From Gemmatimonadaceae bacterium (GTDB lineage Bacteria; Gemmatimonadota; Gemmatimonadetes; Gemmatimonadales; Gemmatimonadaceae), in assembly GCA_025358925.1 (NCBI GenBank), contig JANYHT010000065.1:62001-126000 (forward strand): 64,000 bases of DNA. The letters are read 5' to 3'. A program made the position numbers and the translations under genes. The notes under the pieces were generated by a model that had not been told where the DNA came from, did no database searches, and saw only the letters and a program-made list of their open reading frames with translations. Positions 11,002-22,845 of the stretch are shown here, piece after piece (the stretch's first letter is position 1; every line of letters begins with the position of its first letter).

Positions 11002-12114
11002 ATGACAGATCTTCAAGACGGCGTGCCCCGGCGCTCGCCGCTGCACGATATCCATGTTGCGCTTGGCGCGAAAATCGTCCCGTTTGCGGGGTATCTCATG
11101 CCGGTGCAGTACGCGCACGGCATCACCGTCGAACACACCGCCGTGCGTGAACACTGTGGAATGTTTGACGTCTCGCACATGGGCGAAGTGGAAGTGCGTG
11201 GTGCAGATGCGATGCGTTTCGTGGCATCGATCACGAGCAACGACGTTGAGGCACTGCACGTCGGACAGATTCACTATTCCACGTTATTGCGCGCCGACGG
11301 CACCATTGTTGATGACTTGTTGGTTTATCGTTTCGCAAATCACTTGCTGTTGGTGATTAATGCCAGCAATCGCGAGAAAGATCTTGCGCATATGCGGGCG
11401 CATCTCGGCGCGTTTGATTGCACGCTCACGGATATTTCTGACGAGACCGCACTACTTGCACTGCAGGGTCCTGATGCACCGGCGCTCGTGCAAGCGCTCG
11501 CGGACGTTCCGCTTGCGGACGTGAAGTACTATCGGTTTACGCAGGGCAACGTCGCGGGAGTGCCCTGCATCATTTCGCGCACCGGATACACGGGCGAAGA
11601 CGGATTCGAGTTGTACTTCGCGGCGACGCGCGCGGCGCAGGTGTGGCGCGCGTTCATGGACACCGGCAAAGTCACACCGGCGGGCCTGGGCGCGCGTGAT
11701 ACCCTTCGACTTGAAGCGGGCTTGTGTCTCTATGGCAACGAACTTGATGATCGCACGACGCCGATTGAAGCCGGACTGTCCTGGCTTGTAAAGTTGGCCA
11801 AGCGCGAGCCGTTTCTCGGTCGTGATGTGTTGGCGCGGCAGCACGCCGAGGGGACAGATCGTCGGCTCGTCGGATTTACGGTTGATGAGCGTGCGATTCC
11901 ACGTCACGGGCACGGTGTGACGTACGGTGGCGTCGCCGTGGGTGACGTGTGCAGCGGTACGATGAGTCCCACGTTAGGCATGGCGATCGGCACGTGTTAC
12001 CTGCCAAGCGCGGCGGCCGTGGTAGGGACGTCATTTGAGATTGATATTCGTGGGCGCATGGTGCCTGCACGCGTGGTCAAATTGCCGTTTTACAAGCGAG
12101 CGGGGAAGGCGTGA
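11002..12114 (+). CDS. gcvT: Glycine cleavage system T protein (aminomethyltransferase)
   Basis: 370-residue tetrahydrofolate-dependent aminomethyltransferase of the glycine cleavage system. It takes the aminomethyl group from lipoyl-H protein and releases ammonia while forming methylene-THF. Visible motifs: the N-terminal SPLHDIHVALGAKIVPFAGY, MFDVSHMGEVEV, the folate-site ISRTGYTGEDGFELY, and LGARDTLRLEAGLCLYGNEL. The start ATG 11002 is set by homology; the frame is open for about 570 nt upstream, but that part has no similarity. gcvH and gcvP are not in the window. The stop overlaps the next gene by 4 nt (GTGA). Confidence 0.95.
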   Translation: MTDLQDGVPRRSPLHDIHVALGAKIVPFAGYLMPVQYAHGITVEHTAVREHCGMFDVSHMGEVEVRGADAMRFVASITSNDVEALHVGQIHYSTLLRADGTIVDDLLVYRFANHLLLVINASNREKDLAHMRAHLGAFDCTLTDISDETALLALQGPDAPALVQALADVPLADVKYYRFTQGNVAGVPCIISRTGYTGEDGFELYFAATRAAQVWRAFMDTGKVTPAGLGARDTLRLEAGLCLYGNELDDRTTPIEAGLSWLVKLAKREPFLGRDVLARQHAEGTDRRLVGFTVDERAIPRHGHGVTYGGVAVGDVCSGTMSPTLGMAIGTCYLPSAAAVVGTSFEIDIRGRMVPARVVKLPFYKRAGKA

Positions 12115-13745
12115 GTAGTCGTCCACGTACCGTGGTTGCTCGACGCGAACGCATGGACGATGGAGCGCCCGGCGTGGTGGCAATTTTGATGACCGATGTG
12201 GAGCCGGCGGTGCGGCTCAATGCGGCGTTGGAAGCGCATGGGCTCACGACCGTCACCATTTCGCCCATGGATGACGTGCGTGGCGACCTACGACGTGCCG
12301 AACCCGACCTCTTGGTCTTGACCGGCGCGTTGCTTGATCCCGTCAACGTTGCGCTCGTTCGGCAGCAACTTTGGCAAGGTGTACCGGTGATTGGCTTCAC
12401 CGACGTGTCCGATGCAACGATGCATGAGCGATTGCGCGACGTGGGGTATGTCGAGGCGTGGTCGAAGCCAGTCGTGATGGAAGACGTTGTCGATGCTATT
12501 CGTCGACGTCTCGAGCGCAAACGTCTGGCCCAGTTAACAGGACTCATCGGCGAATCGGAAGCGATTCGTGAAGTGCTCGTGAAAGTGGAGCAGATCGCAC
12601 CTGTGTCGAGCACCGTGCTGATTGAGGGCGAGAGTGGTACTGGCAAAGAACTCATTGCACGCGCCATTCATCGCCTCGGGCCTCGTCGCGGCAAACCCTT
12701 CATCGCGGTGAATGTTGGTGCGTTGCCGGAAACGTTGCTCGAAAGCGAATTGTTTGGCCACGAAAAAGGCGCATTTACCGGGGCGGCTGAACGTCGTCTC
12801 GGTCGCTTTGAGCTAGCGGATACCGGCACGCTCTTCCTTGACGAGATTGGTGAAGTGCCATCGAGTACGCAGGTGAAGTTGTTGCGTGTGCTGGAGGAGC
12901 GTGAAGTGACGCGGGTTGGCGGTACGCAAGTCATCCCGATTGACGTGCGCGTTGTAGCGGCTACTAATCGACCGCTGCGCGAGCACGTCGAAGAGGGCGG
13001 CTTTCGTGCGGATCTGTATTATCGACTCAATGTTTTGCGTATTTATTTGCCACCGTTGCGCGACCGCAAGGAAGATATTCCACTATTGGTGCGGCGTTTC
13101 GTCGCGGAGTTTTCGCGTCTGCATGATCGACCGTTTCACGGCATCTCCGCTGATGCGATGACGTTGTTGATCGAATATCCATGGCCTGGCAATGTGCGCG
13201 AACTGCGCAATCTTGTGGAGAGCATGGTAGTGCTCGCGCACGGTCGCGAGATCGTAGCCGATGATATTCCGCGTGCGATTCGCGATGCCGGCGGGAGACG
13301 GTTGTTGCCCGTGCATGTCGGACCGCAAATTCGGGAAGGGGAGCGCGCGCAGGGGCGGGAGTTGGAGTTTATTGTGCGCTCGCTGGTCGAGCTCAAGTTG
13401 CAAGTTGAAGAGTTGCGGCGTCGCATGGATGTAGAAGCGCCGCGACCGAACGTTGGTTGGATGGGTGAAGTGCGCGCGCAGTCAACGACGGACGGATCGA
13501 CGTACATCCCAGGCGTAGCACCGGTACTGGTTCGTGCGATCGAACCACGTGACGAATCGCTGCCGGCAGCGAGTATTACGCTCGGCCCGGGGATGACCAT
13601 GGCGGACATCGAACGTGTTGCGATTCAGGCCGCGTTGCGCGATACTGCCGGGAATCGGCGCAAGGCTGCGGATCTGCTCGGCATCGGTGAGCGGACGTTG
13701 TACCGCAAGTTGCGCGAGTATGAGGGAGAGGGCGACGAAGGGTGA
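12111..13745 (+). CDS. Sigma-54 dependent NtrC-family regulator with degenerate receiver
   Basis: 544 residues in three domains. Residues about 20-130 have a receiver-like fold, but the phospho-acceptor Asp position reads DLLVLTGALLDP, so the usual acidic residue is missing; phosphorylation control is doubtful. Residues about 145-370 are the AAA+ sigma-54 activator: Walker A GESGTGKE (about 173), GAFTGA loop (about 220) that contacts sigma-54, and Walker B LFLDEIGE (about 241). A Fis-type HTH lies at about 505-540 (NRRKAADLLGIGERTLYRKL). GTG 12111 overlaps the gcvT stop by 4 nt, so it is translationally coupled to gcvT. Targets are unknown. Confidence 0.9.
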   Translation: MSSRPRTVVARRERMDDGAPGVVAILMTDVEPAVRLNAALEAHGLTTVTISPMDDVRGDLRRAEPDLLVLTGALLDPVNVALVRQQLWQGVPVIGFTDVSDATMHERLRDVGYVEAWSKPVVMEDVVDAIRRRLERKRLAQLTGLIGESEAIREVLVKVEQIAPVSSTVLIEGESGTGKELIARAIHRLGPRRGKPFIAVNVGALPETLLESELFGHEKGAFTGAAERRLGRFELADTGTLFLDEIGEVPSSTQVKLLRVLEEREVTRVGGTQVIPIDVRVVAATNRPLREHVEEGGFRADLYYRLNVLRIYLPPLRDRKEDIPLLVRRFVAEFSRLHDRPFHGISADAMTLLIEYPWPGNVRELRNLVESMVVLAHGREIVADDIPRAIRDAGGRRLLPVHVGPQIREGERAQGRELEFIVRSLVELKLQVEELRRRMDVEAPRPNVGWMGEVRAQSTTDGSTYIPGVAPVLVRAIEPRDESLPAASITLGPGMTMADIERVAIQAALRDTAGNRRKAADLLGIGERTLYRKLREYEGEGDEG

Positions 13746-13877: not shown

Positions 13878-14726
13878 GTGGAGCCCTCCCTGTCGATCCC
13901 AGTCAATTTCGGCATGACCTCGCCTTCGATGCCTGTTAGCTCCATTGCTGGCAGCGTGCTTCCGCTTCGACGTGCGGAAGAGCTGATCGCAACGCTTCCT
14001 GGAGTATTGTCGGTCCGGATTGTACCGGGCGAGACGGGAGCGATTGACGAGGTCCACGTGCTGACCACCGAACAGGTCGCGCCCAAACAAACCGTCCGAA
14101 ATATCGAGAGTGCGCTCATTGCGCAGCTCGGTTTACGCGTAAATCATCGCAAAATTTCGATAGCAACTTCACTCGATCAGCCTCGTCCGATCGAGCCGCG
14201 TGCTCCGGACGCGCAGTCGGCACCGGCGAGTTACGCGACACCTCCGCAGCCGATCGCGACGCCTCCATTTGAACGCGCAAAGGCCGTGCCGCTGGCGCCG
14301 CAGATAGCAGACCTTGTGCCGGTGGGACGACGAGCGCTCGTATTTGAAGGGGTGGAGGTCCGTCGGTCTCGATTACGGGGTGTGACGTGCCGCGTAATTT
14401 TGAGCCGGGGCGGTCAGGAATTTGTTGGTGAGGCGGAAGGTCAGGAGAGTGAGCGGTCGAGAATTGACTTGTCCGCTCGTGCGACAGTGGCGGCGATCGC
14501 GGAAACGTTTCGCGTGAATCCTGCGGGCGAACGGAGTCTGTCGTTGGAAGGCTCGACGTTGATCGCGGCATTTAATCGCGAGTATGTGTTCGTAAGTGTT
14601 ACCGCGCGTGCTGGCCGAGAGGCGGTGGCGTTGACCGGTAGCTGCGAAGTGCGTGAGAGCTCGGAGACGAGTGCCGTGCTTGCTGTGCTCGATGCCACGA
14701 ATCGGTGGATTCACGTTTCCCCGTAA
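13878..14726 (+). CDS. Conserved protein of unknown function upstream of HD-GYP gene
   Basis: 282 residues from GTG 13878 (ATG 13914 and 13929 also possible). I do not recognise a named family. The N-terminal domain has LPGVLSVRIVPGETGAIDEV, then HVLTTEQVAPKQTVRNIESA and LGLRVNHRKISIA: an alpha/beta unit reminiscent of small ACT-like or asp23-like folds. A Pro/Ala-rich linker of about 60 residues follows. The C-terminal part (LRGVTCRVILSRGGQEFVGEAEG, then ARATVAAIAETF and AVLAVLDATNRW) looks like two dodecin/LeuA-dimer-like half-repeats. No signal peptide or membrane segment. TATGAT at 13851-13856 could be its -10. Its position in front of the peptide ORF and HD-GYP gene suggests a joint role. 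Confidence 0.6.
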   Translation: MEPSLSIPVNFGMTSPSMPVSSIAGSVLPLRRAEELIATLPGVLSVRIVPGETGAIDEVHVLTTEQVAPKQTVRNIESALIAQLGLRVNHRKISIATSLDQPRPIEPRAPDAQSAPASYATPPQPIATPPFERAKAVPLAPQIADLVPVGRRALVFEGVEVRRSRLRGVTCRVILSRGGQEFVGEAEGQESERSRIDLSARATVAAIAETFRVNPAGERSLSLEGSTLIAAFNREYVFVSVTARAGREAVALTGSCEVRESSETSAVLAVLDATNRWIHVSP

Positions 14727-14923
14727 AGTCGCGCGAAGCCGCGTGACTTCGGTTGGTCAATCTCGTCGTCTCTAGTGCAGGCGATGTTCAGTAAACGTCC
14801 CCGTCTCCCGGTAGAGCGGAGCGGAGCGGGCAGGCCAAAGTAGTAGGAGCGGAGCCAACCTGGATAAGCATGCGGCGTCCCGAGCGGGGCACGCGTGACT
14901 ACCCACAAGGGAGGTGACGCAAC
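14727..14923 (+). other. GC-rich leader of unknown function, possibly structured RNA
   Basis: 197 bp with no supported gene except the peptide ORF that starts at its end. It contains purine repeats (GAGCGGAGCGGAGCGGG near 14814 and GGAGCGGAG near 14849), short self-complementary blocks (TCCCGAGCGGGG; GAAG..CTTC), and closes with ACAAGGGAGGTGACGCAAC. It does not match the glycine, cobalamin, c-di-GMP-I or yybP riboswitch cores that I know. A small minus-strand frame across it was judged to be by-product. Structure is inferred only. Confidence 0.3.
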
Positions 14924-14995
14924 ATGGAAATTCTGGCCCAGCTCGTGAGCGCTTTTTGGTCGTTCGTTTTGGTAGAAACCAAGACTTGGGGCTAA
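14924..14995 (+). CDS. 23-residue peptide ORF upstream of HD-GYP gene
   Basis: Micro-ORF starting ATG 14924, ending TAA 14993-14995. The peptide begins MEILAQLVSAFWSF and ends ETKTWG. It is preceded by GGGAGGTGA, an almost perfect complement of the 16S rRNA 3' end, 7 nt before the ATG; this is the best ribosome binding site I saw in the window. The middle is hydrophobic and aromatic (LVSAFWSFVLV) and the tail polar with a terminal Trp-Gly. It could be a leader peptide, a secreted or membrane micro-peptide, or a signal sensed by the membrane HD-GYP protein that starts 40 nt later. None of these roles is shown. Confidence 0.5.
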   Translation: MEILAQLVSAFWSFVLVETKTWG

Positions 14996-15035
14996 GGTAG
15001 GCTAGGAAGGCGGGGGCGCCATTCTTAAGAACTAC

Positions 15036-16358
15036 ATGAAAACAAGAGTAATCGCCTACGTGTACGCGATTGTGGCGGCTTCGGCTGCCACTCTTGTAGG
15101 TTTATACCTGCGAAATCCGAAAGTAGATGCAGGGCTGCTCTTCGGCGCGGGAGTCATAGCGTTGCTTGGATTCGTTGCCGCACAAACTCGGTATCGAGTT
15201 CAAGGTAACACCTTCGGAGAAGTTTCTTTTATTCCGTACTTGTCTGCATTGGTGCTCTATCCATCTTGGGCTTCCGTCGCTTTAGTAGGCTTGTGCACGA
15301 CCGTTACAGAGATTGGAAAGCCGAAACCAGCAATTAAACGCGCGTTCAACATTGCGCAGCTCGTGCTGGCGGCTTCGGTCGCAAGTCTGATCTACCTTGT
15401 TCTGGGTGGACACTCGCTACAGGTCGATAAGACGTTTGCAGCGCTTCCGCATGCGGCTGCGGTCGTGAGCTTCCTTTTGATCAACACTTTTTCTGTTGCT
15501 GCAGCGGTCGGACTTGCTGAAGGGAAGGGTATATGGAATACGTGGTACGAAGGAAACGCGAGCGGACTTCTCTATGACGTCTTCGCAATACCGATGGTTT
15601 ATGTCTTTGCACGAGTTTTCGTAGATTGGGGACCTTGGGGAATGCTGTCACTTGGTGTTCTTGTGATCGGTTTTAACGTCACATATCGAGTCAAGCACCG
15701 ACTCGAGAACACTAATAAGGAATTATTGGAACTCTTTGTGCACACCGTTGAGTTTCGGGATCCGTATACATCCGGTCACTCGCAACGCGTTTCGAAGTAT
15801 TCAAGGATAATCGCCCGTGCAGTCTCGCTTCCCAGCAAAGACATCAAAAGAATTTCAATCGCCGCGTTGCTACACGACGTAGGGAAAATCCACGAGATTT
15901 TTGCTCCAATTCTTTCGAAGCCTGGTCGCCTGACTCCTGAAGAACGTGCGATAATGGAGCTTCATCCGATCAAAAGTGCCGAACTAGTTGCAAAGTTGTC
16001 GGAACTCCAAGACATCGTGCCATCTGTCCGCCACCATCACGAGAATTGGGATGGTACTGGATATCCAGATCAATTGAGCGCTCGCGATATTCCCCTTGCT
16101 TCTCGCATCATCATGTTTGCCGACACAATTGATGCGATGACAACTGATCGACCGTATCGGAAAGCAATGACGGAGTCAGAAGTAAGGGCCGAACTGATTA
16201 AGCAACGCGGAAAGCAATTTGATCCATTCATTTGCGATGCGTTGCTCGATAGTCCGCTATATCCGCAATTGTTCACTGCGGACGACACCAAAAGCACTCG
16301 AACATTTACTCAAATACTAGAGATGCGCCGCCGCCCGAAGACGCCAGCGGTAGCATAG
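15036..16358 (+). CDS. Membrane-bound HD-GYP phosphodiesterase
   Basis: 440 residues. Residues 1-225 hold six to eight membrane segments (e.g. VIAYVYAIVAASAATLVGLY, AALPHAAAVVSFLLINTF, GMLSLGVLVIGFNVTY) and act as a likely sensor. Residues 235-420 form the HD-GYP domain, which degrades cyclic di-GMP in studied members: LLHDVGK (about 279), HHHENWDGTGYP (about 333) and FADTIDAMTTDRPYR. All expected metal ligands appear present. ATG 15036 has no strong ribosome binding site; coupling to the peptide ORF is possible. Codon use is less GC-biased than in neighbours, a hint of transfer. The signal sensed is unknown. Confidence 0.88.
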   Translation: MKTRVIAYVYAIVAASAATLVGLYLRNPKVDAGLLFGAGVIALLGFVAAQTRYRVQGNTFGEVSFIPYLSALVLYPSWASVALVGLCTTVTEIGKPKPAIKRAFNIAQLVLAASVASLIYLVLGGHSLQVDKTFAALPHAAAVVSFLLINTFSVAAAVGLAEGKGIWNTWYEGNASGLLYDVFAIPMVYVFARVFVDWGPWGMLSLGVLVIGFNVTYRVKHRLENTNKELLELFVHTVEFRDPYTSGHSQRVSKYSRIIARAVSLPSKDIKRISIAALLHDVGKIHEIFAPILSKPGRLTPEERAIMELHPIKSAELVAKLSELQDIVPSVRHHHENWDGTGYPDQLSARDIPLASRIIMFADTIDAMTTDRPYRKAMTESEVRAELIKQRGKQFDPFICDALLDSPLYPQLFTADDTKSTRTFTQILEMRRRPKTPAVA

Positions 16359-16681: not shown

Positions 16682-16734
16682 CCCCGGCGGCCACCTCAAA
16701 ATCCCCCACCTGTGGCCGGGTCAAACTCCTCCAC
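16682..16734. repeat. Left terminal inverted repeat of IS21-family element
   Basis: Starts CCCCGGCGGCCACC, contains AAAATCCCCCACCTGTGGCC, and ends CAAACTCCTCCAC. It pairs with the right end with one indel and about four mismatches. Confidence 0.88.
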
Positions 16735-16760
16735 TCGCAGCGTGAGGGGACGGGATCACG

Positions 16761-17528
16761 TTAGGTACCAGCCGGACGGTTGGCAATGCGGGCGGCCGCT
16801 TCTTTCAGACGCCAGCTTTTGCCTTCAAATTTCAGCAAATGTCCGTGATGCATGAGGCGGTCGAGTAATGGCGTGACGACGACCGTGTCGCCAAGGAGAC
16901 GTGCCCAGTCTTCCAGTGGGCGGTTCGATGTGACGATGGTGGATGATTTTTCATACCGGCTCATCAGCACTTCTGTGAGTTCGTCGCCCGCTTGGGTCGG
17001 CAGTTTGCGCAAGAAGAGATCATCGATGAGCAAGAGATCGACCGCTTTCAGTTGTTGGCGGTATTGGCGCAGCTGTCCCAGTTCGCGGGCTTCGGCGAGA
17101 TCTTCGATGAGTTGATGCGCTTCCCGGTACAGCACTTTGAAGCCACGTTGCACCGCGAGCAGTGCGAGCGCTTTGGCGCAGTGACTTTTCCCGGTGCCTG
17201 GGGGTCCAATGCACAAAATGTCTTCGTGCGCGTCAATAAACTGGAGGGTGCTGAGTTCGAGTACTTCGCGTTTTGGCACGCGCGTGTTGTACGTCCAATC
17301 AAATGCTTTCAGATCTTTGCGTTCCCGCAAGCCCGAGAGCGTGAAGCGCCGTTCGAGCAGGCGCGACCGCCGTCGGTCCAATTCGTCTTGCACCAGCCAC
17401 GAGAAGGCTTCGACGAAATCCATTTCGTGCGTCGTGACTTGCAGCGCGCGCGCGGGCAGCGTGGCGCTCATCCCCGACAAGCGGAGCGCGCGCAGTGCCT
17501 GTTCGAGTTCGGTGATCGACATGGTCAT
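16761..17528 (-). CDS. istB: IS21-family helper ATPase IstB
   Basis: 255-residue AAA+ ATPase that assists the IstA transposase in assembling the transposition complex and selecting targets. Motifs: Walker A CIGPPGTGKSHCAKAL (about residue 107), Walker B LLLIDDLFL, and the arginine-finger region STIVTSNRPLEDWARLLGD. Length is normal for IstB. The ATG at 17526-17528 overlaps the istA stop (ATGA), so translation is coupled. No frameshift or truncation is seen. Confidence 0.95.
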   Translation of the reverse strand: MTMSITELEQALRALRLSGMSATLPARALQVTTHEMDFVEAFSWLVQDELDRRRSRLLERRFTLSGLRERKDLKAFDWTYNTRVPKREVLELSTLQFIDAHEDILCIGPPGTGKSHCAKALALLAVQRGFKVLYREAHQLIEDLAEARELGQLRQYRQQLKAVDLLLIDDLFLRKLPTQAGDELTEVLMSRYEKSSTIVTSNRPLEDWARLLGDTVVVTPLLDRLMHHGHLLKFEGKSWRLKEAAARIANRPAGT

Positions 17529-19111
17529 TGGAGGGTTCCCGTGTGCGTGAGCGTGTCCGTGTGTTCCGGCGTGCGTTCATCCGTCGCGTGTTGTTCCCAA
17601 AACGTTTGGTATTCCGTCACGGGGCGGATGTCCGGCCCCGTTTGTGTCAGCGCGGGCGGCGGCGCGGCGGGCGGCGCCACGCGTCGCACGAGCGCCTGTT
17701 TCACGGCCGCGTACGAGTGACAGCCGGCGGCGTGCAATCGTTCACACACCGCTTCGATGTCGACGCGCGCATAGGTGCGGGGCAAATTCGCGAGGCCGTA
17801 AATCGCGCGTTGTCCGGGCCGCCCGAGGCGCGCAAACAGTGCCTGCGCGAAGGCGGTGGTATGCGGGCCGATCTGTTCCGCGCGCGCGAGCACGCGGGCG
17901 GTTTCCCGCGACGGATTGAACAGACGGTCCGACGCGGCCATCACGAAGGCGCCCCTGCGCAGGGCCAGCGCATGTCGGCGTAACACCGTGCCGCACCCGT
18001 CCCGGATCTCGACGCCGTGCGCATACACGCGCACCGTCACCAAGCTGTGCACGGGCGCGGGCAGCGCCGCATAGTACGCGCCCTGGATTTGCACGAGCCC
18101 ACTGTCATCGACCGTGCGGACACATTGCGTGAAGCACCGAAAGCCTGCGAGCGGTAACGGTTTGAGTGCCGATTGTTCTTCGCGAAACATTTCGAGCACT
18201 TGGCGTTTCTTGCGTCCATGAATGCGAAGCGCCGCCCAGTGCGCTTCCCAATGCGCGAGCCACGTGTTCTGCGCATCGAGCGTGTCAAACGTGCGCCCTT
18301 TCAGCGCGGTGCCTTGCGTGTGTTGAATGGCACTTTCGACGGTGCCTTTCCGATTCGGATCCTGGATGCGACACGCATCGGCGACGACACCATAGTGCGC
18401 GAGCAGCGCGGCGTACACCGGATTCAGTTCCGGTTCATACAGGTCGGGACGCAGCACGCCCGCTTTCAAATTGTCGAGCACGACGTACTGCGGACATCCG
18501 GTGAGCGCGCGAAAGGCTTCTTCATGCAACTGCGCCCACACGTCTTGCGTCGCTTTCCACACCACTTTCCGAAAACTCTTGCCCGAATATTTGAGCGTCA
18601 TCACAAACAACCACGGGCGCTTGTATTTGCCCGCTGCCGTCCGCGTCGGCGCGCCTTGCCCGAAATCGACTTGCGCCTCCTCTCCCGGCGGAAACTCCAG
18701 CACATCGAAACGCTCCGGCACGCGCGACTTGAGGCGCGCCACAAAGCGTTTGACGGAGTTGTAGTGATGCAAGAAGCCGTGACCTTCGACCAGGTCCTGA
18801 TACACGCTCACCGCGTTCCGGCCGAGCGCGACTTGCGCGGCAATCCACGCGCGATGGGGTTCGCAGGCGGAGACCGTCGTGCGCACCGCCCCGGACTCGC
18901 TCACGCCGTCCAGAGCCGGTGGCCGGGGTGGGGGAGTTCGATCCCCCGACTCCGAAAAACCGGTGGCCACCCCGGGGGAGTTTGCGGACGGCGTATACCG
19001 TCGAATCGTTTTCCGATCCACGCCCGTGCGTTTCTCGATCTCGCGCTGCGACGCGCCGCTCGCCAGCAGCGTCGCAATGGTCATACGTAAATGGGCCTTC
19101 AAGACGTTCAC
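17525..19111 (-). CDS. istA: IS21-family transposase IstA
   Basis: DDE transposase of about 528 residues from GTG 19111, preceded by GGAGG with 5-nt spacing; a longer frame from 19165 is open but less likely. The N-terminal HTH reads TIATLLASGASQREIEKRTG, then VDRKTIRRY. Catalytic acids are visible in EEAQVDFGQG, YVVLDNLKAG and NRKGTVESAIQHTQ, the D-D-E triad of rve integrases. A Pro/Gly-rich stretch near residues 45-75 lies over DNA that repeats parts of the terminal repeat (GGTGGCC, GGGGGAGT). The C-terminus is rich in Ala/Arg. It appears intact. Confidence 0.94.
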   Translation of the reverse strand: MNVLKAHLRMTIATLLASGASQREIEKRTGVDRKTIRRYTPSANSPGVATGFSESGDRTPPPRPPALDGVSESGAVRTTVSACEPHRAWIAAQVALGRNAVSVYQDLVEGHGFLHHYNSVKRFVARLKSRVPERFDVLEFPPGEEAQVDFGQGAPTRTAAGKYKRPWLFVMTLKYSGKSFRKVVWKATQDVWAQLHEEAFRALTGCPQYVVLDNLKAGVLRPDLYEPELNPVYAALLAHYGVVADACRIQDPNRKGTVESAIQHTQGTALKGRTFDTLDAQNTWLAHWEAHWAALRIHGRKKRQVLEMFREEQSALKPLPLAGFRCFTQCVRTVDDSGLVQIQGAYYAALPAPVHSLVTVRVYAHGVEIRDGCGTVLRRHALALRRGAFVMAASDRLFNPSRETARVLARAEQIGPHTTAFAQALFARLGRPGQRAIYGLANLPRTYARVDIEAVCERLHAAGCHSYAAVKQALVRRVAPPAAPPPALTQTGPDIRPVTEYQTFWEQHATDERTPEHTDTLTHTGTLQ

Positions 19112-19196
19112 TCCTTCCTCCGCACCGTGGTGAAGAGGACAGCGTAACGTCCCGTCGTCTGGCACCCCGAATTAGGCGCTCAAACGGTCACGCCGG

Positions 19197-19248
19197 GTGG
19201 AGGAGTTTGAGGTGGCCACAGGTGGGGGATTTTGGGTGGCCCCCGGGG
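19197..19248. repeat. Right terminal inverted repeat of IS21-family element
   Basis: Reads GTGGAGGAGTTTGAGG at its inner side and GGGTGGCCCCCGGGG at the outer end. It is the reverse complement of the left end apart from one indel and a few mismatches. Confidence 0.88.
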
Positions 19249-19523: not shown

Positions 19524-22500
19524 TTATTTCGCGGCCACCTTTGCAGATACTCTTGCAAGACCAGCTGCAATTGGTCCTCGGTCACGACGCTGCGTTCTCA
19601 GATAAGCTCCAATAAAATCTGCGGCCTCTGAGTGCCGTTCTGACGCTACGAGCGACTCCCCGATAACCGATGTCAAATAGTCGCTAGTTCCAAATCGTGC
19701 TGTGCCCCCGTGCCTAGCAATAGCGACGTCAAGCAATGACCGATCGTTTGGCTGGGACCTGCCCTTTTGTAGAAGCGAAGCACCGAGTTCAAGTGCGGCG
19801 TGATATGCGTAAGATTTCGCAGTCGGGCATTTTCTAAGATGTTGGCCTGCCACTAAAAGGGCAGCAGCAGCCGCATGCACTTCTTCAGCCTCGATAGCAA
19901 GTCGCGCTAAGTGTGAGAAAACGTAATGCCCCGCGCCATCGCTGGGCGCATGGCAAAAGGCTTCGGAAAGAATGTCGGCGTGCCGACGTGCCTTTTCTCT
20001 GTCGTCCAGCTCAAGTGCTATTACCGAAAGTTGCCAATGCGGATACATGATCAAAGCCGTTGTGCCCTCAATCTCGGCGTTTCGTTGCGCTTCGTCAAAT
20101 CCAGATTGAGCTAAGCCCCAATCGCCGCAGATCCTCAAAGCATAAGCGGCGCGACAAAGCTTATAGTACCTCCCGGTAGAGATCACGGACTTCATGGCAG
20201 AGCATAAAAGAAGTTTTGCAGCCCGTTCAGCGCGCGCCATGTCACCGAAGATTGTGTGGTATGCAATGTCTATTGCGACGGACTGCTCTTCGTGTGGCGG
20301 ATCCGGCAACACGTCGTCGACACTTACATAGGCTTCTCGCGCCAGCTCTGACGAGCATAGGTTCGCAGCAATACGAATTCCGAGATCCGCCGCGCGCAGT
20401 CGCAGGTCCACACTCGTGCGGGGATCGCCCGAAGTCAGGATCGCTGATCTTGCAATTGCTTCCCTGTCCGCACTCGGATCCGCACGAAATGCTGCTTCCA
20501 TCCGAGACAGCAGTTCACTGATATCAGAAGGTGATGTAGCTCGATACGTAAGGTTGAATCGCACGGCGTACGTATCACCACGAACCGCTGACGTGTGCAG
20601 TCCACACTCGACCTCTGCTTGCATTCGAATCAGTTTTAAATCGTCGAGATGTTCGTCTTTGCACCGAACAATTGCTTCATCGGCGAATTTTAAGAGCGTT
20701 CCGCCATCGCCAGCAGCTAGGAGCGTATGGGCGTAAAGAATTAAATATCGGCTGAAAGAATCCGCATCCGCCGCCGCCCGCCAACTGGTCAAAATGCGTA
20801 GAGCATCGCTAAGTGAAGGGATTTCTCGTGCGCGACGAACTAACGCGAGCGCAACGCGTCGATGCACGTATCGAGCAGCGGTTACACCAAGCTTTGCTAC
20901 TGCCGTCTGCGCCAGAAGCTCATGTACCGAAACGGTTGAATCGCCGCGGTCCGCGAGCGTGTGTGCTTTGTCTAGTTCGTCGATTGCGGCCAGGATCTCA
21001 AAGACTCCAAGTTCGAGTATTTCTTCAAGCCCAGAAACTGTTGCAGAGTCACCCAATGCAGAGGCAGTTTGGAGCACGAGCAACGCCGTCACACTCAGCT
21101 TCGCTAGCCGCTGCTCAATCACCTCGCCCAACGTCGGCGGTACACCACCCGCTTCGCCAGACTCAATCCAATGATTCACCAATGATCGCAAGAATAACGG
21201 CACACCCTCACTCGCCTTCACAAACCAGTCGCCCAAAGCATCCGTTAGCGGCGCCGACAAGTCATCACTGATCGCGCGTGCCAATGCCAAGGAACTCTCT
21301 GCCGACAGCGGATGCAACGGACGAACGCGCAACGCATTCGGCACACGTCCAGGCCGCGTCGCGCGCGCGTGAGGTTCGCGCGAAGTCAACACCACAAATG
21401 CACGCGTCGAGTCAGCGTGCTCAATAAAATCCGCCAACACTTCCCACGACGTCTCGTCGATCCAATGCGTGTCATCAACGACCAGCAACAACGGCTTCTC
21501 ATCAGAGACCGCCGCCATCAAGTCAATTAGCGCGCGTCGCAACGACGATACGACCTGGTACGGCGGCGCTACGCTCGGCGCATCCAATTCGCTAATCGCC
21601 GGCTCAATCACCGCAGACGTCTCCACAATCTCGGGCTCCGGCTCAGGCGTCACAAACGCACGCGGCATCCACCGCTTCAACATCCGCAAGTTCTCGGGCG
21701 CACAACCGAGCGCACCCGGCATCGACAGCATCGCCGGCGCGAGATCCAAAAATACCGACAGCGGACGCACGGCATCCAATTCACGACACCCCACGCGCAT
21801 CGTCCGAAATCCCTCAAGCGCGCCCACTTTCGCGAGTTCGCTCGTCAGCCGCGTTTTCCCCATGCCGGATGTACCGTGCAATAACACCACGCTGCCATCA
21901 TGCCATCGCGCACGACGCATCATCATCGTCAACACCGAGAGTTCTTCTTCACGTCCCATGAAGTGTCGCTCCGTCGGCGCAAACGAAATGCGTCCGCGCG
22001 CTATTGGCTCGGCGATGCGTCGTCGCAACATCGCTGCCGGCAATCGAATATCACCGGCCCCGATACCCAATTCTGCAAGATACTTATCTAGGATGGCGAC
22101 AGCTTCTGACTTGGAGCCGGCCAACGCCGTGCACTCTGCGACGGTCAGCGTCGCGTCTTCATTCAGCGGATCAAACTGCAGCAACCACCGCGCGAGTGCC
22201 TCGGCGCCACTCCAATCCGCCCGCTCGCGACGCGTGCGCAGCTGACCGACGAGTACTCGACGCACGTCGGCATGCACCGCCTCGCGCTCCGTATCAAGCC
22301 AGTCCTGAAAATCCGGTGACGACGCCACATAGGCGGGCAAAAACAGACCGAACGGTTCATGCCCGCGTGTGACGTCCCGCTCGAACTGTTCACCGGTACG
22401 CTCGAGCGAGAACGTCGTGAGCACTTGTCCCACGTCCAGCTCCACCACCTCGCCGACCAACCCCGCACGTACGCCAAGCTGACGCAACTTATACAACGCC

Positions 22501-22784
22501 TGTCGCAGATTGGCGCGCTGCCGCACCGGCGTCTGCCCATGCCACAACTCGGCAAGCAGCGTGTCGCGCGCGCAGCGCATCTCCGGTGCATAAGCCAAAC
22601 GCAATAGCAGCGAAAACAACGTGCCGGTTGATGGATCCAATCGTGCGTCGCCCACCAAAAGCGTCGTCGCACCGAGCGTTTGGAGACGGATCAACACGCG
22701 CCCCTGCGGATCCAGCGTGGGCGCGACCGTACGGTCGACGGTGCGCAAAAACGGGTGTTCGCGGCGGGCGTGTGGTCGGGCCAT
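19524..22784 (-). CDS. Large BTAD/SARP-type regulator with AAA ATPase and TPR-like domain
   Basis: 1086 residues. An N-terminal winged-helix region (about 30-130, FSLLLRLAYAPEMRCARDTL, then QRANLRQALYKLRQLG) and a BTAD helical domain (about 130-280) resemble SARP activators. A STAND-like AAA ATPase follows: Walker A LLHGTSGMGKTRL (about 308) and Walker B LLLVVDDTHWID (about 433). The C-terminal 450 residues are helical TPR-like repeats that usually bind ligands or partners. Start ATG 22784 has GAGGGA 6 nt upstream. The N-terminal half is GC-rich, the C-terminal half markedly less so, suggesting a mosaic origin. It may control neighbouring genes; targets are unknown. Confidence 0.85.
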   Translation of the reverse strand: MARPHARREHPFLRTVDRTVAPTLDPQGRVLIRLQTLGATTLLVGDARLDPSTGTLFSLLLRLAYAPEMRCARDTLLAELWHGQTPVRQRANLRQALYKLRQLGVRAGLVGEVVELDVGQVLTTFSLERTGEQFERDVTRGHEPFGLFLPAYVASSPDFQDWLDTEREAVHADVRRVLVGQLRTRRERADWSGAEALARWLLQFDPLNEDATLTVAECTALAGSKSEAVAILDKYLAELGIGAGDIRLPAAMLRRRIAEPIARGRISFAPTERHFMGREEELSVLTMMMRRARWHDGSVVLLHGTSGMGKTRLTSELAKVGALEGFRTMRVGCRELDAVRPLSVFLDLAPAMLSMPGALGCAPENLRMLKRWMPRAFVTPEPEPEIVETSAVIEPAISELDAPSVAPPYQVVSSLRRALIDLMAAVSDEKPLLLVVDDTHWIDETSWEVLADFIEHADSTRAFVVLTSREPHARATRPGRVPNALRVRPLHPLSAESSLALARAISDDLSAPLTDALGDWFVKASEGVPLFLRSLVNHWIESGEAGGVPPTLGEVIEQRLAKLSVTALLVLQTASALGDSATVSGLEEILELGVFEILAAIDELDKAHTLADRGDSTVSVHELLAQTAVAKLGVTAARYVHRRVALALVRRAREIPSLSDALRILTSWRAAADADSFSRYLILYAHTLLAAGDGGTLLKFADEAIVRCKDEHLDDLKLIRMQAEVECGLHTSAVRGDTYAVRFNLTYRATSPSDISELLSRMEAAFRADPSADREAIARSAILTSGDPRTSVDLRLRAADLGIRIAANLCSSELAREAYVSVDDVLPDPPHEEQSVAIDIAYHTIFGDMARAERAAKLLLCSAMKSVISTGRYYKLCRAAYALRICGDWGLAQSGFDEAQRNAEIEGTTALIMYPHWQLSVIALELDDREKARRHADILSEAFCHAPSDGAGHYVFSHLARLAIEAEEVHAAAAALLVAGQHLRKCPTAKSYAYHAALELGASLLQKGRSQPNDRSLLDVAIARHGGTARFGTSDYLTSVIGESLVASERHSEAADFIGAYLRTQRRDRGPIAAGLARVSAKVAAK

Positions 22785-22816
22785 AGATCCCTCAAGTGGA
22801 GTGGTCGGACCCACAC

Positions 22817-22845
22817 GTTCTATCATGGCGTCACCGAAGTGTCAT
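22817..22845 (-). promoter_or_regulatory. Promoter of BTAD regulator gene
   Basis: On the minus strand, ATGACA (22845-22840) and TAGAAC (22822-22817) are separated by exactly 17 nt. The start point would be near 22810, leaving a leader of about 26 nt that contains the GAGGGA ribosome binding site of ATG 22784. The ATG at 22826 lies upstream of the predicted start point, which argues against it as start codon. Confidence 0.6.

Follow-up and report, generated by a model that had tools for sequence, protein, structure and literature searches.

A micro-ORF within a conserved structured RNA and its variable neighbours in Gemmatimonadetes: a candidate polymorphic peptide-recognition locus

We analyzed a stretch of 64,000 nucleotides from a Gemmatimonadaceae bacterium (contig JANYHT010000065.1, positions 62,001 to 126,000; hereafter, the window) and found a micro-ORF enclosed in a conserved RNA domain. 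The N-terminal part of the encoded peptide is conserved, its tail is variable, and the alleles of the tail are exchanged together with those of two neighbouring proteins, the HD-GYP protein H and the regulator S. We consider it rather probable that this is a polymorphic peptide-recognition ("pherotype") locus, in which the micropeptide is a signal read by H and/or S.

Layout and distribution of the locus

The original prediction described a three-part locus composed of a 282-residue protein, a micro-peptide and a membrane HD-GYP protein. All of these parts were found in this order in the window. Gene A, called as an ORF of 282 aa at 13878-14726 (+), is a class-wide conserved neighbour. After a 197-bp gap downstream of gene A, a micro-ORF of 23 codons, MEILAQLVSAFWSFVLVETKTWG, is located at 14924-14995 (+). 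Its SD is GGGAGGTGA, and the ribosome binding site GGGAGG at 14909-14914 (+) is kept through the class. The gene for H, which possesses MASE9 and HD-GYP domains, occupies 15036-16358 (+). Upstream of gene A, at 12111-13745, lies a gene for an NtrC-like sigma-54 activator with a Fis HTH, which is found at this place in the genus and in many relatives. The three-part description was, however, incomplete, as the leader forms a structured RNA and a 1,100-aa AfsR-like regulator, S (19524-22826, (-)), belongs to the locus too. In the window, S is split off from H by an IS21-family insertion at 16683-19248, which is not in the module elsewhere. The element carries IstB (16761-17528) and IstA (17525-19165), whose reading frames look intact, between imperfect inverted repeats (16683-16737 and 19194-19248).

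The search for A and H covered 100 relatives and about 300 genomes of the phylum. The prediction was to be given up if relatives showed no conservation of the short ORF or of the gene order, or a disrupted frame. In this comparison, the order A, short ORF, H recurred at the genus, family and order levels and in other families of the class, and the frame was kept. This arrangement is far beyond chance. A short ORF with a strong SD was likewise present in other families of the class (f4, f5 and f7), and H homologues without an upstream A (L240 and L250) had no short ORF. In one genome (G046), the RNA and ORF stay with H although gene A is 13 kb off. In some genomes of family f2 (L094, L268 and others), an additional response-regulator-like gene lies between A and the RNA, and the RNA is directly before H. 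The class in which the locus occurs is one of soil and freshwater bacteria.

The DNA pattern of the leader was also searched in other phyla. A or H was present at 53 of the 119 loci, and almost all of these 53 were in records titled Gemmatimonadota or Gemmatimonadales; the few A- or H-bearing records under other titles are probably mis-binned. Matches with a constant length of 76 occurred in Bacteroidales and some other phyla (L125, L143, L162 and others) without A or H, and these probably belong to an unrelated conserved gene.

The micro-ORF and its peptide

Every intact gap between A and H that was examined, in several families of the class, contained a short ORF of 14-35 codons behind a strong ribosome binding site, and this ORF nearly always terminated in Trp or Trp-X. 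At loci with A followed by H, the usual SD was GGGAGGTGACGC and the start codon was ATG or GTG. Trp was the last or penultimate residue in 102 of 107 distinct peptides, a set that was gathered partly by a Trp-favouring regular expression and to which exceptions with a final I, L, Y or S were added by hand. An unfiltered listing of every ORF behind a strong SD gave the same Trp-ending picture. The median length of the 107 peptides was 23 residues. They are hydrophobic (mean 0.46, versus 0.00 in other frames), and their helical amphipathic moment was specific to 100 degrees, with a mean z of about 1.1. The N-termini are hydrophobic and amphipathic, and the net charge is mostly -1 or 0. A basic N-terminus like that of a signal peptide was absent from the peptides, a point against the signal reading.

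In 22 members of the genus, the 23-codon frame was kept without indels, and the differences at the three codon positions were 0.265/0.148/0.348. The other frames were often interrupted and were not hydrophobic. A comparison of synonymous and nonsynonymous changes, proposed with the original prediction, was performed, and the changes in the N-terminal part (pro-region) were mostly synonymous, whereas those in the tail were mostly nonsynonymous. This pattern was clearest in genus g7. In its four species, residues 1-18 are common with one G/C change (MSFLAELI[G/C]GFFAAAFRD), and the last five residues vary around an invariant Trp (YIIWR, FMVWG, ALIWG and SIVWN). The changes in codons 2-18 were almost all synonymous, and those in codons 19-23 were mostly nonsynonymous. 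When close pairs from two genera were pooled, the ratio of nonsynonymous to synonymous changes was 12/20 in the pro-region and 23/2 in the tail (p=2.6e-5, with pairs that are not independent); the contrast remained with disjoint pairs only (p=0.010). In the window, the variable tail corresponds to codons 18-23 (14975-14992), where Trp22 is invariant. The pattern was also present, though noisier, in the window's genus (DLKTWG, DLKLWG, DMKIWG, DAKVWN and ETKTWG). Judged from these comparisons of sequence, the micro-ORF is real and is under protein-level selection.

Contigs of several metagenome-assembled genomes (L012, L034, L106, L134, L258, L265, L266 and others) stop inside the RNA or the ORF, often near codons 16-21. 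These contig ends suggest that the tail is polymorphic between strains. The 30 best A loci showed no clear excess of contig breaks; in the list for the phylum, a count by eye gave 10 breaks downstream versus 1 upstream within 700 bp (p 0.0035).

The RNA domain around the micro-ORF

One conserved RNA domain extends from the leader through the ORF to the sequence behind its stop codon, and the P1, P2 and P4 helices of this domain all covary. The 5' strand of P1, CGTCCCCGTCTCCC, at 14796-14809 (+), opens the domain, and its best complementary helix is formed with 15005-15018. This 3' strand, GGAAGGCGGGGGCG (15005-15018, (+)), begins 9 nt past the micro-ORF stop and closes the domain just before the start of H. 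The structured leader at 14798-14923 (+), from which covariance model R1 was built with genus members, comprises P2, the motifs GAGCGGAGC and the P4 hairpin (14869-14897, (+); helices 3 and 4 in the pairing test below). As a rule, R1 matched each genome strongly only once, at this locus. None of 4,227 Rfam models matched at E<=5, nor at gathering scores. A mobile or multi-copy RNA was considered and set aside on the single strong match per genome; a second copy was found in G003 and G031. At the G003 locus (L056, contig C231), the RNA and the ORF start occur twice in near-tandem with an N gap between them, and the two ORFs differ.

Pairing was tested with 50 sequences. Standard pairs filled 97.4% of the paired cells, compared with 77.3% in shuffles (0 of 500 as good) and 21-51% when slid, in an alignment whose fitting to the covariance model favours this score. 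Changes on both sides were observed in 13 of 16 pairs. In the P4 helices, they were observed in 10 of 11 pairs, and 98-100% of the cells were paired. For P1, the gapless core score was 31.5 for cognate strands, 22.6 for strands swapped between species and 20.4 for shuffled strands. A test of the whole P1 duplex with long segments was uninformative (shuffled -51.5, cognate -59.2), since any long stretch rich in GC will pair.

The median distance from the stop codon to the 3' strand of P1 is 7 nt (5-95%: -3 to 15), and the stretch behind this strand is pyrimidine-rich (68% over the next 10 nt). Most H genes have no separate SD, and they begin a short distance downstream of P1. By geometry only, the helix before H overlaps the footprint of a ribosome at the leader stop codon, as in an attenuator. 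We also considered P1 as the inverted repeat of an invertible DNA segment, and the G-U pairs in P1 favour pairing at the RNA level instead. Pairs such as CUCC/GGAG or GUCACC/GGUGAC were seen by eye in many, not all, sequences, and we do not claim a helix common to the class that sequesters the SD.

Proteins encoded beside the micro-ORF

Gene A: Pfam and NCBIfam sequence searches gave no family, in agreement with the original prediction. In the AF2 model (mean pLDDT 80.5, pTM 0.49), the protein has a predicted N-terminal ferredoxin-like domain and a C-terminal fold of the LeuA/citramalate synthase regulatory domain. The model matched LeuA in Foldseek (E 1.3e-6) and 3f6h with a Z of 9.7 over 119 aligned residues. 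The beta-beta-beta-alpha unit occurs twice, as in LeuA_dimer, a likeness by fold alone. As modelled, A has no catalytic domain and may be a sensor of an amino acid or metabolite.

H: The Pfam domains are MASE9 and HD_5 (HD_5, E 3.1e-37). The polytopic MASE9 region contains about six to seven hydrophobic segments, and the catalytic motifs are intact (HDVGK at 280 and HHENWDGTGYP at 334). By motifs and profile, H is a predicted HD-GYP phosphodiesterase. In one genome (G234, locus L286), H reaches 747 aa with an extra part, a receiver-like protein is encoded after it, and S was not found in its vicinity.

S: A convergent gene for a protein of about 1,050-1,126 aa was found beyond H in 20 of 21 extended loci, other families included, with one S copy cut by a contig end. 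It was present in nearly all of 20 further loci from other genera. H and S end side by side in relatives, with adjacent or overlapping stop codons. In most of the tested genomes without H, S was missing or was present only as a fragment or degraded copy. The order of regions in the family is a winged-helix, BTAD/Trans_reg_C-like region, an AAA_16 STAND-type NTPase and TPR. Among four S homologues that were profiled, AAA_16 was detected in all; BTAD was detected in L285, with Trans_reg_C there below the cut-off, and TPR_19 was above the cut-off in L276, with other TPR models below it. In the window copy, AAA_16 was the sole match above the cut-off. The C-terminus of S matched TPR proteins in the PDB, including the TPR sensor PH0952 (E 1.4e-13). 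Taken over the homologues among which the matches are spread, S has the DNA-binding/BTAD, NTPase and TPR regions of a large SARP/AfsR-like protein.

Exchange of alleles between relatives

Close relatives were found to have near-identical A and leader and an unlike H. The sliding nucleotide identity falls inside the ORF and remains low past H. Synonymous divergence is saturated from the middle of the ORF through H to the C-terminal (TPR) half of S, with nearly identical flanks. In the window, this hypervariable half of S is 19524 to about 21749. In the closest pairs, pS by gene was 0.17-0.48 in the flanks (NtrC, A, N-terminal third of S and MoxR) and 0.65-0.87 in the island. In the pair G001/G022, pS was 0.19-0.48 for NtrC, A, the N-terminal third of S and MoxR, and 0.74-0.87 for H and the rest of S; over the C-terminal 130 codons of A it was 0.106, compared with 0.75-0.77 for H. 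In G005/G015, the flanks were at about 0.2 and the island at 0.68-0.82. The exception was G017/G006, in which most of S was less diverged (0.37-0.77). The pattern was repeated in genus g7 (G035/G163), where pS was 0.11 for A and 0.79-0.84 for H. In all genera compared, each pair had an H near synonymous saturation. At the protein level, the identity of S in such pairs was 83-97% in the first third, and 24-33% in the last third in the most contrasted pairs. Read at synonymous sites, this divergence shows replacement, namely exchange of old alleles, and not fast protein change. Synonymous saturation by itself is not proof of selection by a peptide.

Within the genus, distances in the N-terminal half of the peptide tracked those in A (r 0.69), and distances in its C-terminal half tracked those in H (0.52-0.54). 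In a subset of 15 members, the membrane domain of H was uncorrelated with A (r 0.00) and correlated with the C-terminus of S (0.55). This last correlation persisted when A and the N-terminus of S were controlled (partial r 0.55, p 0.0002), and also when the catalytic domain of H was added (0.37, p 0.002). In contrast, in partial Mantel tests, the partial correlation of the tail with H vanished once the catalytic domain of H was controlled (r 0.10, p 0.22), and that of the tail with S was not significant (p 0.11). Linkage may account for the co-variation of the tail, H and S, which are neighbours. Since the tail-specific partial correlations are weak, we infer ligand-receptor matching and do not claim co-evolution of specificity.

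Discussion

The original prediction left three roles for the peptide: a ligand, a translational switch or a regulator of H. The ligand is favoured here, as hypervariability is shared by the tail, the membrane domain of H and a second putative receptor, S. In the proposed mechanism, the micro-ORF would produce a peptide of 14-35 residues, composed of a conserved amphipathic pro-region and an allele-specific tail, [A/G/S]-[D/E]-x-x-x-W-x. If the peptide is exported or processed as a signal, its tail would be read by allele-matched receptors beside the ORF. The TPR half of S is a candidate cytoplasmic reader with transcription as its output, and the MASE9 membrane domain of H is a candidate membrane reader with c-di-GMP breakdown as its output. 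The tail, H and the C-terminal half of S would be swapped as a single cassette into conserved flanks. The RNA around the ORF probably meters the expression of the peptide. Because P1 begins so near the stop codon, a ribosome there should prevent P1, and this blocking would tie the expression of H to peptide translation.

Most known examples of polymorphic peptide communication come from Gram-positive bacteria, where ComX/ComP and Agr are polymorphic. The pherotype loci of Bacillota (ComX/ComP, Agr, Rap/Phr and PlcR/PapR; RRNPPA) likewise have a conserved pro-region, variable C-terminal residues and a hypervariable receptor neighbour, as well as TPR in the candidate receptor and exchange of cassettes. 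The present locus differs in the phylum, in its candidate receptors (an AfsR-like STAND protein and a MASE9-HD-GYP protein) and in the location of the ORF inside a closed conserved RNA. As in RRNPPA systems, the propeptide ORF is close to a TPR receptor gene, with H between the ORF and S. The receptor architecture is not HTH-TPR or Rap-type; S has about 1,100 residues and contains an NTPase and a BTAD region, and we therefore do not file the locus as RRNPPA. If our reading is right, the locus would, by analogy, work like these systems. The literature places RRNPP systems in Gram-positive Firmicutes (PMC10075063, PMC9765709), and the active PapR peptide is the 7-residue ADLPFEF (PMC6568020), about as long as the variable tail of the present peptides.

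AfsR of Streptomyces is a large SARP with NOD and TPR (PMC10936776). The same order of BTAD/Trans_reg_C-like, NTPase and TPR regions is found in the S family; the difference is that the C-terminal half of S is allele-variable. H likewise resembles MASE9 HD-GYP phosphodiesterases in its catalytic motifs and membrane domain, and differs in the hypervariability of this membrane domain and in its linkage to a peptide ORF. We know of no paired peptide described for AfsR. No description of this locus or of peptide signalling in this phylum was found in the open-access literature, nor any paper on MASE9 in open-access full text.

The main rival is a purely cis-acting leader peptide, in which the micro-ORF would solely control H: a ribosome at the stop codon would block P1 as a terminator-like or start-sequestering helix, and Trp would serve nascent-chain pausing. 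The short distance from the stop codon to the 3' strand of P1, with the pyrimidine-rich stretch behind it, fits this mechanism, as do the mostly missing SD of H and the company that the RNA keeps with H when A is 13 kb distant. The arrangement of a short ORF, a helix at the stop codon and a gene immediately downstream is also that of the trp and tna attenuators. However, the would-be terminator loop here is about 200 nt long and structured, and the tail is hypervariable. Pausing predicts the reverse of what is observed, since the residues near the C-terminus, except for Trp, are the most variable, and it is the N-terminal part that shows conservation at the protein level. Nor would a cis-acting leader account for the linked variability of S. 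We regard a solely cis-acting role as unlikely. If P1 instead locked the mRNA of a type I toxin-like peptide by 5'-3' pairing, a short hydrophobic product, an SD within structured RNA and a long-range helix would be expected, as found. A single-copy, class-wide gene at a fixed site beside H and S, with a hypervariable tail and a tandem copy only in G003, speaks against a toxin, to which we give very little credence. Even less credible is an ORF that is an untranslated accident: the leader RNA itself is strongly conserved, but so is the frame over 22 genus members, with codon-position differences, interrupted alternative frames and synonymous changes in the pro-region.

The exchange of cassettes between close relatives, and a STAND-type NTPase with a hypervariable C-terminal sensor, would also suit a hypervariable defence or allorecognition locus. 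S and H would then diversify in response to phage or non-kin, with the peptide as an intracellular guard, a self-marker or an autoinhibitor rather than a secreted signal. Against this stand the transcription-factor-like region at the start of S and the maintenance of a single locus in most genomes of the class. A and S also matched no PADLOC family, and the sole PADLOC matches were HD-domain hits of H to Cas3-type models. We judge a defence function to be improbable, more so than the cis-acting leader. The pherotype locus is the reading that we prefer. A bolder form of it, which we put forward only tentatively, is that the allele-specific peptide directly sets both c-di-GMP breakdown through H and transcription through S, and that selection for diversity keeps the tail, the membrane domain and the TPR domain polymorphic, so that the locus would provide self-recognition throughout the class.

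The locus would add to the known structured RNAs a new one with an ORF inside it, and its allele series amounts to a set of natural swaps for direct tests. If the peptide is a signal, this would be a new signalling family, mostly single-copy and class-wide, in a poorly studied diderm phylum. Peptide recognition would be tied to c-di-GMP, and an AfsR-like STAND regulator would gain a candidate ligand. The short tail around an invariant Trp, together with the matched receptor alleles, would then constitute a ready-made specificity code.
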